A DNA stretch of 64,000 bases. Source: Pedomonas mirosovicensis (GTDB lineage: Bacteria > Pseudomonadota > Alphaproteobacteria > Sphingomonadales > Sphingomonadaceae). The position numbers and the translations under genes are program-made. Location of the stretch: positions 1,069,001 to 1,133,000 of the forward strand of contig NZ_JAKFIA010000001.1 in the NCBI RefSeq assembly GCF_022569295.1. The letters run 5' to 3'. The notes under the pieces were generated by a model that was given only the letters and a program-made list of their open reading frames with translations, made no database searches and was not told the origin of the DNA. Of this stretch, positions 39,520 through 44,091 are shown piece after piece; position 1 is the first letter of the stretch; every line of letters begins with the position of its first letter.

Positions 39520-40836
39520 ATGGAATTTCTGCACTTCAAACCCAGCACGCTGCTGATGGCGCAGGCCGCGCTCGTCATCGGCCTGCCGTATCTGTTGTGG
39601 CGCATCCGGCCGCTGGCGCGGCTCGCGCCGCTGGGCGTGCTGCAAATCGTGGTCGCCATCTTTCTCGGCCCCACCTTTGCCGGGCAACTCGCGCCCGAGC
39701 TGTGGAGCCGCACCTTCCCCGTCGCCAGCCACGACTACATCACCGGCATCGGCTGGTTCGGCGTCATGCTGTTCGCCTGTACGGTCGGCAGCGCCTTCAG
39801 CCTGGAAGACCTGCGTGGCAAAAGCGCCAAGCTCACGGCGGTGAGCCTGTCCAGCATGATTACGCCCCTGGTTCTTGGCGGCCTGGTCGGAGCCTGGCTG
39901 GGCAGCGCCCACCCATCGATGATTGGCGAGGGCGTGAGTCCGGTTCTCTTCTCGGCGGCGGTTGCGGCCTGCATCGCCGTGACCGCCATGCCCATCCTTG
40001 CCCTCGTGTTGCAGGACATGGGCATCGAGACCACGCCGCTCGGCCGTGCGGCCATGTCTGCTGCCCTGTTCGACGACAGCGTCATCTGGGTGGGCCTGTC
40101 CGCGCTCATCATTCTCGCCACCGGTAGTTCATCATCGGCAGCCACCGTGGTCGTTGCCACCTTTGCGCTCGCCGGGGTGCAGGTTGCCGTCATGGTGTGG
40201 GGGGTGCGCCCGCTGCTCGTGCGCTGGTGGAGCCGGGCGGCGGCGACGCCTGTGGCCGATGCGGTTGCTTTCAGCCTATGCATCATCACCTGCTGCGTCT
40301 CGGCCACCGTTGCAGACATAATCGGCGTGCACTTCGTCATCGGCGCATTTCTGGCCGGGGCGATCCTGCCTCGGGACATGGCCGGGCGGGCGATCACCGT
40401 TATCCGCCCGGTGACCACCTATGCGCTGCTGCCCTTCTTCTTCCTCGGCACCTCGTTTCAGGTGACGAGCAGCCTGGGGGAGGAAGGGATTCTCGCCGCT
40501 TTCCTGCTGGCAACGGCGGCCGCTGGGCTGGGCAAGCTGCTGGGGGCGGCGGTTCCCGCCCGCCTGTTCGGCGACAGCTGGAACCAAGCGCTGGCGCTCG
40601 GCTCCCTGCTGCAGTGCAAGGGGTTGATGGAAATTGTCGCGCTCCGCATCCTGCTGGACGGGGGCATCATCAGCAGCCAATGCTTCAGCGCCTTCATCGG
40701 CATGGCAGTGGCCACCACCCTGGTGTCCAAGCCCCTGGCTGCCTTCTTCCTCGCGCGTCAGCGCAGGGCCGGGGCGAAGCGCGCCTCCCTCAACGCCCTG
40801 GGTGTGCCGGCTGAAAAGGAGCAGCACGCCTGCTAA
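39520..40836 (+). CDS. CPA2-family cation:proton antiporter (Kef-type)
   Basis: A 438-residue membrane protein with about 12 hydrophobic helices. The family features are the helix FACTVGSAFSLEDL, the acidic pair in SAALFDDSVIWVGL, which corresponds to the ion-binding aspartates of monovalent cation/proton antiporters, and VHFVIGAFLAGAILPRDM. There is no C-terminal TrkA-N nucleotide-binding domain, so it is the short form. It probably exchanges K+ or Na+ for H+ across the inner membrane; the ion cannot be told from sequence. It stands alone between terminator-bounded neighbours. Confidence 0.85.
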   Translation: MEFLHFKPSTLLMAQAALVIGLPYLLWRIRPLARLAPLGVLQIVVAIFLGPTFAGQLAPELWSRTFPVASHDYITGIGWFGVMLFACTVGSAFSLEDLRGKSAKLTAVSLSSMITPLVLGGLVGAWLGSAHPSMIGEGVSPVLFSAAVAACIAVTAMPILALVLQDMGIETTPLGRAAMSAALFDDSVIWVGLSALIILATGSSSSAATVVVATFALAGVQVAVMVWGVRPLLVRWWSRAAATPVADAVAFSLCIITCCVSATVADIIGVHFVIGAFLAGAILPRDMAGRAITVIRPVTTYALLPFFFLGTSFQVTSSLGEEGILAAFLLATAAAGLGKLLGAAVPARLFGDSWNQALALGSLLQCKGLMEIVALRILLDGGIISSQCFSAFIGMAVATTLVSKPLAAFFLARQRRAGAKRASLNALGVPAEKEQHAC

Positions 40837-40936
40837 GGTTCGAAAGCCCAGTTAAGGTCCAGGCGCGGATGCGTAAAATATAATCAGAGGAACTTTAATA
40901 AATCAGGCTTGTTTCCTCAGAATGGAGAGGTGGCAT

Positions 40937-40965
40937 GATTATTGCTATACTTGTCAGCAATAATC
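40937..40965. promoter_or_regulatory. Palindromic operator candidate over an extended -10 promoter
   Basis: GATTATTGCT (40937-40946) and AGCAATAATC (40956-40965) form a perfect 10-bp inverted repeat with a nine-base centre. Within it TGCTATACT fits an extended -10 element (TGN-TATACT, 40943-40951) pointing at the rubrerythrin-like gene, 94 bases away. A repressor bound here would block that promoter. I do not recognise the site as Fur, Irr, PerR, Rrf2 or IscR. Confidence 0.5.
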
Positions 40966-41044
40966 GCAAGGCGCTGCTTTTCTGTGGGAATAAGCGCCAA
41001 GTCAGGCTCTCCACTCAAGAATAGCGTGATTGTTGGAGGGTGTG

Positions 41045-41620
41045 ATGAGCGTAAAGCGTCGTGACCGTCTGATGTTTGGCTTGGTGATTGCCGCAGCACT
41101 TGGCTCGGCAAATGTTGCGCTCGCCCAAGGGAGTGCTCAGGAAAGCGCTCACCGGTTCGTGCTGGTGCAGAACGACCTGGACGAAGCGATGAAGAACGAG
41201 GCCTTTGATGCGGCCAAATATACGCTTTTCGCGCAGCAGGCGCGGGAGCGGGGCAATCAGGCTCTCGCCGCCGTGTTCGAGCGCGTGGCCAACACGGAGA
41301 AGACGGATCATTTCCGGAAACTTGCGGCCCTCTCCGGGCACGAGACCGCCATGGATCAGGCGGAGCAGCAAGCCGAACTGGCGAAGCTGCCGAACAAATC
41401 TGACGAGGCGAACCTGCGTGACGCCATGACCACCGAAAGGTTCCAGGCGAACGCCCTACGGTCCGACATGGTCAATCGCGCCATCAAGTACGGCGACCTG
41501 CAGGCAGCCAACATGTTCCTGAACATCGGAAACGGCGAGATCAAAAATCTCCTCGCGTTCCGCGCCGCCAAGAAGCTGGCAAAACAAAGCCAGCCGCAGG
41601 GCGCGCCGGTCCAGTCCTGA
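41045..41620 (+). CDS. Exported rubrerythrin-like (ferritin-like) protein
   Basis: A 191-residue protein with a signal peptide (MSVKRRDRLMFGLVIAAALG..ALAQ, cut near residue 28). Residues 43-95 (LDEAMKNEAFDAAKYTLFAQQARERG..FERVANTEKTDHF) resemble the first half of an erythrin four-helix bundle. Residues 125-172 (DAMTTERFQANALRSDMV..AANMFLNIGNGEIKNLL) resemble the second. Candidate metal ligands E52, E85, E131 and E165 are kept. The histidines expected three residues after the second and fourth glutamates are D88 (H89 is adjacent) and N168, so the di-iron site may be altered. There is no rubredoxin domain. The ATG at 41045 follows GGAGGG. A role in peroxide handling is inferred only from the family. 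Confidence 0.7.
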   Translation: MSVKRRDRLMFGLVIAAALGSANVALAQGSAQESAHRFVLVQNDLDEAMKNEAFDAAKYTLFAQQARERGNQALAAVFERVANTEKTDHFRKLAALSGHETAMDQAEQQAELAKLPNKSDEANLRDAMTTERFQANALRSDMVNRAIKYGDLQAANMFLNIGNGEIKNLLAFRAAKKLAKQSQPQGAPVQS

Positions 41621-41640: not shown

Positions 41641-41806
41641 AAGGGGGCCTCGAGCCCCCTTGGAACCCCCATTCGTTTGTCGGGCCGTGTTTCGGGAATG
41701 CGCTGGAAACATGGCCGGATGAACAGGATTTCACTGGGCTGCGACCGCTTTCCCGCGCCCGATTCAAAGTGAAAGAGAGGTGCAGGAGGGTCCGCGACCC
41801 TCCTGC
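41641..41806 (+). repeat. ~160-bp hairpin-bounded intergenic repeat, copy A
   Basis: The element begins with hairpin AAGGGGGC-CTCGA-GCCCCCTT (41641-41661) and ends with hairpin GCAGGAGGGTC-CGC-GACCCTCCTGC (41782-41806). Inside, CCCCCATTCGTTTGTCGGG follows the first hairpin, and the core CTGGAAACATGGCCGGATGA matches copy B on the other strand nearly base for base. It fills the gap between the convergent rubrerythrin-like and uvrC genes. Confidence 0.75.
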
Positions 41807-41838
41807 AAAAAACCAAAATACCAAAAACTTGAACGAAC

Positions 41839-43764: not shown

Positions 43765-43867
43765 GAGCGCCAATATAGGGGGGCTAGGCCTTAGCCCCTA
43801 GAAGGATTGATGTTACGGGCGAGAACGAATCAAGCCTATGGCCAGGGCTCGATCTGATGCTGTGAAC

Positions 43868-44091
43868 TTATCCACGCCGCCTGTGGATAAGTTTGTGGGC
43901 ATGCCGTTGGTGGATTGCCCAAACCCGCAGAACTCTGCCATTCCCTGCCACTTGCCTGTTTTTTGAGCATATTCAACAAGCTATTGAAAAAGATCTACTT
44001 TTTTCATGTCAACACTGTTACGCCCTGAGACGGAGCGGCTCCAATAGCTGAATTTCCCTGATACACGGCGGCCTTGCGGGGATGTGTAAAA
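43868..44091. other. DnaA-box-like sites and AT-rich stretch between uvrC and folB
   Basis: The 341-base gap has no gene. It holds TTATCCACG (43868-43876), TGTGGATAA (43882-43890, the reverse complement of the perfect DnaA box TTATCCACA) and TGTGTAAAA (44083-44091, which fits TTWTNCACA on the minus strand). Between them, about 43960-44024 is much richer in A+T than the rest of the window. The first two sites also form the inverted repeat CTTATCCAC/GTGGATAAG. It could be a DnaA-binding locus or part of a replication origin, or simply a hairpin. Confidence 0.35.

Follow-up and report, generated by a model that had tools for sequence, protein, structure and literature searches.

The 29-base palindrome upstream of the gene for an exported rubrerythrin-like protein in Pedomonas mirosovicensis shares its left arm with what, judged from its bases, is very probably a sigma-54 (RpoN) promoter of that gene, located at positions 40930-40946 of the window (the whole 64-kb stretch of DNA that was analysed). 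The promoter type is already known and this is most likely a previously unrecorded instance of it. Under this assignment the rubrerythrin-like gene would no longer count as driven by a repressed sigma-70 promoter but would belong to the sigma-54 class, which depends on activators, and its exported product would be tied to a promoter type that in this genome serves surface (PEP-CTERM) and flagellin-like genes. The features to which we refer are the following.

40884-40921, strand not assigned: candidate activator site, imperfect inverted repeat TCAGAGGAA / TTCCTCAGA (9-nt arms, 89%)
40923-40951, plus strand: sigma-70-like alternative, TGGAGA-N17-TATACT with TG before the -10 (9/12 match)
40930-40946, plus strand: putative sigma-54 (-24/-12) core, GG at 40932-40933 and GC at 40944-40945 (11/13 consensus positions)
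40935-41024, plus strand: 29-codon frame MIIAILVSNN... over the palindrome, behind GGAGAGG
40937-40946, plus strand: left arm GATTATTGCT of the inverted repeat, containing the -12 element TTGCT
40956-40965, plus strand: right arm AGCAATAATC, mainly the beginning of the transcript given a start at 40957
40957, plus strand: predicted transcription start (+1 = G), at the usual 12-nt distance from the -12 C at 40945
41003-41044, plus strand: possible leader hairpin pairing with the ribosome-binding site GGAGGG (predicted fold)
41045-41620, plus strand: gene for the exported rubrerythrin-like protein, 191 aa (PF02915, 24.9 bits, cut-off 22.8)

The sigma-54 core and its specificity

From 7 bases left of the palindrome the DNA reads GTGGCATG-ATTA-TTGCT (GTGGCATGATTATTGCT), a GG-N10-GC sigma-54 core. 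The core, its specificity in the genome and the presence of rpoN were all computed. Scored against the -24/-12 consensus YTGGCACG-N4-TTGCW, this was the only site on either strand of the 64 kb to reach at least 11 of 13 positions, and a single rpoN match was found in the genome (PF04552, E 2e-69, in a 534-aa frame). The likeness to known sigma-54 promoters comprises the GG-N10-GC spacing, the TGGCA and TTGCT cores, the position and strand of the site before the gene and the presence of rpoN. The site departs from the consensus by a C to T change at the sixth core base (TGGCAT), a variant that also occurs at the promoter-like sites L212, L214 and L219 of the same genome, and it adds to the usual architecture a second -12 region, inverted, that covers the start site.

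We sampled 40 evenly spaced 20-kb stretches, which together with the window make up 864 kb (24% of the genome). The strict core TGGCA[CT]N5TTGC[AT] occurred there at 9 sites, versus 0-2 sites for each spacer of 1-4 or 6-11 (5 in all), none for the reversed core and a mean of 1.3 for letter-permuted cores (60 tries, largest count 8, none reaching 9). A looser core, TGGC[AC][CT]N5[TC]TGC[AT], was found at 19 sites versus 12 in the reversed control, so that the strict core alone is discriminating. Seven of the eight other strict sites (L120, L212, L214, L216:12486, L218 and two in L219) lie 41-88 nt, counted from their first base, upstream of a start codon in the same orientation, and the eighth (L216:12392) lies within coding DNA; the L214 site is the same as the L169 site, and that of L218 is also inside an open frame of 568 codons that runs the other way. 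Counted in the same way, the window site stands 115 nt from its ATG, farther than at the seven other sites. In this genome the strict core marks promoters rather than random DNA.

The genes that follow the seven sites include four of the PEP-CTERM type (L120, L214, L216 and L218) and two flagellin-like genes (L219, read by eye), and one gene to which inspection by eye gave no name (L212). The PEP-CTERM assignment was confirmed by NCBIfam model TIGR02595 at L120 and L169, and also at L172 and L115 outside the 864-kb count, and comes from a pattern match to the tail at L216 and L218.

As the core occupies 40930-40946, its -12 element falls within the left arm of the palindrome; a palindrome spotted by eye can in this way be half of a known promoter element. 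With C40945 as the -12 C the start would be at 40957, so that the palindrome would consist of the -12 element and its inverted counterpart and would span the start site, from -20 to +9. From a sigma-54 promoter it follows that the gene is probably turned on by an activator, and we infer this requirement, like the start site and the use of the promoter in the cell. On GG (40932-3) and GC (40944-5) RpoN-polymerase would form a silent closed complex, which an AAA+ enhancer-binding activator, bound upstream, would have to remodel before initiation near 40957. A motif search of the 864 kb gave no gene for an enhancer-binding protein, and upstream of the window promoter no convincing activator site was seen, the repeat at 40884-40921, centred at about -54, being a weak candidate.

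Comparison with PEP-CTERM promoters

Haft 2006 (PMC1569441) reports that 99 of 167 proteobacterial PEP-CTERM genes are preceded by a sigma-54 motif together with an upstream motif, and names PrsK, PrsR and PrsT; PMC9850573 reports for pepA of Aquincola a mapped, RpoN1-dependent start with TGGCAC and CTGCTT elements. A 13/13 sigma-54 site that we found before the PEP-CTERM gene of L172, outside the 864-kb sample, agrees with the RpoN control described in these two papers. The window promoter resembles this group in that it has the same core in the same genome and its gene also encodes an exported protein; the distance to the start codon, 98 nt, is of similar order to the average of 71 nt (SD 38.5) stated in PMC1569441.

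It differs from the PEP-CTERM/PrsR promoters in the missing PrsR-type box and in its product, which gave no PEP-CTERM family match and has no PEP-CTERM tail. We read the box of this genome, expected some 60 nt upstream, as TGTCGG-N6-TTACA, with pattern matches before L120, L124, L216 and L218 and variants, seen by eye, before L169 and L172. It is absent at the window promoter, where the best score, 8/15, is at background level (464 kb, made up of the window and 20 stretches, has 17,420 positions with this score on its two strands), and membership of the rubrerythrin-like gene in a PrsR regulon is therefore not supported. Elsewhere in the genome, TGGCCC-type sigma-54-like sites were noticed at L124:4222 and L121:19821 (minus strand); the one in L124 has a 15/15 PrsR-type box upstream.

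The palindrome and alternative readings of the site

The original prediction, which as a whole is partly supported, described a perfect 10-bp inverted repeat with a nine-base centre and read it as an operator for tight repression over an extended -10 promoter. The repeat, GATTATTGCT-ATACTTGTC-AGCAATAATC, lies at 40937-40965 exactly as described (29 bases), TGCTATACT overlaps its left arm, and the repeat does cover the promoter of the rubrerythrin-like gene. It sits in a 208-nt gap (46% GC versus 66% for the window) that is flanked by a CPA2-type antiporter gene (39520-40836) on the left and by the rubrerythrin-like gene (ATG at 41045) on the right.

A perfect repeat with arms of at least 10 and a gap of 0-20 arose in 4 of 3000 first-order Markov versions of the 208-nt gap; over the whole non-coding DNA of one window we estimate the chance at a few per cent, taking a crude non-coding fraction of 14%. 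The window as a whole holds 12 such repeats, most of them GC-rich and hairpin-like, versus 1 to 7 in 12 Markov runs. In the 464 kb we counted 71 perfect repeats with a gap of 3-15 (Markov mean 14.7, three replicates), again GC-rich and hairpin-like for the most part, six of which, the palindrome among them, have arms of at most 40% GC (Markov mean 0.0, three replicates), and the palindrome is therefore one of a small non-random class.

With up to 3 mismatches allowed, the full pattern matches nowhere but at the site itself, both in the window and across the genome, so the search for further copies, proposed earlier, yielded none. At the same tolerance 9 of 149 genomes of the family matched, its own included (the control was non-zero, 1 row), and at eight of the nine other family loci the match lay inside an open frame of at least 120 codons, twice in what looked by eye like a MucR-like gene; a looser pattern matched in 38 of 148 genomes, with several match strings that again look MucR-like by eye. 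A genome-wide operator was rejected, as the full pattern occurs once in the genome and the family matches lie mainly in open frames. The exact 18-base version, ATTATTGCT-N9-AGCAATAAT, was present in 47 scattered stretches of the named genome collection, by title three alphaproteobacterial and seven from Nostocales, none being recognisable by title as a close relative. The Nostocales matches (L023, L027, L034, L036, L038, L050 and L052) could represent a conserved repeat there. Intergenic DNA of plasmids and phages gave no match to the palindrome, and Rfam none in 40700-41200; among the papers listed for its two 9-mers, the titles look unrelated to the motif.

The sigma-70 reading, in which an extended -10 promoter (TGCTATACT) is tightly repressed by a redox or metal regulator bound to the operator, can point to TG-N-TATACT with a -35-like TGGAGA at 17 nt, a 9/12 match that the palindrome covers. 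We consider it improbable: one such match compares with a mean of 0.3 (sd 0.6) per shuffled region and is not clearly above it, whereas the sigma-54 site on the same bases occurs once in 64 kb, and the TGCT that opens the -10 stretch is the end of the sigma-54 TTGCT. Nor does a regulator gene adjoin the site, which together with the lack of a second full copy of the palindrome leaves the proposed redox or metal signal unsupported. The idea of tight repression fared better in part, as a protein on the dyad would, given its position relative to the predicted start, block transcription; with a specific sigma-54 core on the same bases, however, control by an enhancer-binding activator is the first expectation. 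Both promoters could be in use at the site. That the inverted repeat works as RNA, by forming a hairpin that terminates transcription of the antiporter gene or structures the leader, would accord with its folding energy (-10.7 kcal/mol, z -3.9), but is very unlikely because no U-run follows the repeat and a transcript from 40957 would leave the left arm untranscribed; no terminator-like site was found in 40820-41060 either. Just as remote is control by a leader peptide, in which translation of the 29-codon frame would open a hairpin that hides the ribosome-binding site of the gene. The frame has its Shine-Dalgarno-like GGAGAGG, and the 5' arm of the predicted hairpin (fold of 40958-41060, z -2.0) takes in its last codons, yet its third-position GC is 52% versus 76% and 85% in the flanking genes, the loci tested held no relative of it, and it starts upstream of the predicted transcription start; from its composition it is probably not a gene.

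The dyad as a possible operator

Within the preferred sigma-54 reading, a repressor on the dyad would exclude RpoN-polymerase and provide a second layer of control. If the dyad is an operator, the repressor would oppose RpoN at the -12 element itself, a simple veto on an activator-only promoter. A second sigma-54 promoter with a dyad (9-bp arms, N10) is present in the genome before a PEP-CTERM gene, at G000:C1:745733, where the relative of the palindrome (G000:C1:745743, L169) sits in CTGGCATAGCTATTGCT, a textbook sigma-54 promoter. The pattern ATTGCT-N3..20-AGCAAT has six sites in the genome (none in the reversed control), two of which, by our reading, are at sigma-54 cores, namely these two promoters. 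A further site, G000:C1:381823 (L114/L168; N9, 6-bp arms), before a gene read as gltD, was set aside since it has no sigma-54 core and its arms stop; it is a possible weak relative of the palindrome.

Searching the order with TGGCAYN5TTGCTN4..16AGCAA gave 53 places in 47 of 396 genomes (the controls were non-zero, 5 rows), with a spacing of 9-10 at 7 of the 53 and of 14 at 20. In 35 of these places the outward extension of the arms summed to 16 versus 11.6 after shuffling (16% of shuffles as high) and the inward extension to 18 versus 13.2 (14% as high); without the two sites of the own genome the outward sum was 7 versus 10.4. A dyad as a general feature of sigma-54 promoters was rejected on these counts, as a spacing of 9-10 is not favoured and the arm extension stays within the range of shuffling.

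As the dyad is present at 2 of the 9 strict sites in the 864 kb, with centres of N9 and N10, and the order shows no trend, we treat its role as a repressor operator as a tentative possibility. It is quite conceivable that the promoter is a sigma-54 promoter that repeats its -12 region in inverted form by coincidence and without function, for which the same low count and unequal centres speak, as do the lack of a trend to longer arms in the order and the homologues with usable alignments, which have no dyad. Against a coincidence, about 0.1% of such regions would acquire perfect 10-bp arms by chance, and the second promoter lengthens TTGCT/AGCAA by 4 outward pairs in partly different letters (GCTATTGCT/AGCAATAGC). 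The more specific proposal, that one repressor reads TATTGCT-N9/10-AGCAATA and competes with RpoN-polymerase at a few genes for exported proteins, with a veto over the activator, is rather unlikely.

We know of no match of the palindrome to the operator consensus of Fur, Rrf2 or OxyR. A repressor palindrome over a start site is described in PMC12849132 for PhaR at phaP1, and the window dyad resembles it in lying in the start-site region. The PhaR motif as given there, YTKNTGCRNYGCANMAR, is palindromic but degenerate, has a 1-nt centre and lies near -35 and -10 boxes, whereas the window dyad has 10-bp arms, a 9-nt centre and a place on the -12 element.

The rubrerythrin-like gene, its homologues and other repeats

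The 191-aa protein has a signal-peptide-like start, read by eye, and scores far below the cut-offs of the NCBIfam rubrerythrin and nigerythrin models; the genes near the site are those for the CPA2-type antiporter and uvrC. The first Glu-x-x-His motif of the protein has an apparent extra residue (EKTDH), and the metal site may be altered. Protein matches were found in 3 of 196 genomes of the order and 14 of 385 of the class, both counts including the genome itself and all other matches being weak, and in 4 plasmid records (34-35%); the genus-level search covered one genome, the source genome. No close relative appeared in the order, class, plasmid or named-genome searches.

Among the 19 homologue loci, 11 gave a usable alignment; 4 others aligned with an E above 1 only, and the remaining 4 did not align. 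None of the 11 usable, distant loci has a comparable repeat upstream, L069 and L073 having other repeats there, and L071 alone has a sigma-54-like core, in TGGCATAGTTGTTGCT-N10-AGCAA before the start of a rubrerythrin gene (L071:187-217, 5-bp arms). L071, from an AT-rich, fragmented and 81% complete genome of the same class, is striking but was set aside as evidence, being 1 of 11 usable loci with only 5-bp arms. The repeat of L073, also before a rubrerythrin-like gene in another member of the class, has 18-bp arms (TTCATCTTATATAAATCG).

Several other observations concern repeats and reading frames in this genome. The PEP-CTERM gene that follows the second dyad promoter (L169:1559-2171) runs for 97 codons from its ATG and has its tail in another frame, with a run of six G where the two frames overlap, which may be a sequencing error or else a sign of phase variation or decay. 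Other perfect inverted repeats, AT-rich and with arms of 15 to 17 bp, were seen at L126:1046-1089, L117:6225-6257 and L124:19313-19353. A near-identical hairpin, TGCAGAGGGTC-N3-GACCCTCTGCA (with TGCAGGAGGGT variants), recurs in many copies in the 464 kb, for instance at 41781-41807 of the window and at L117:12913, L118:3523, L118:18340, L126:349, L126:9453, L128:8586 and L131:17738, and is possibly a genus-specific terminator or repeat family. Finally, a perfect dyad, AACTTATCCAC-N7-GTGGATAAGTT, whose halves we take to be DnaA-box-like, lies at 43865-43893 of the window, upstream of uvrC (minus strand).
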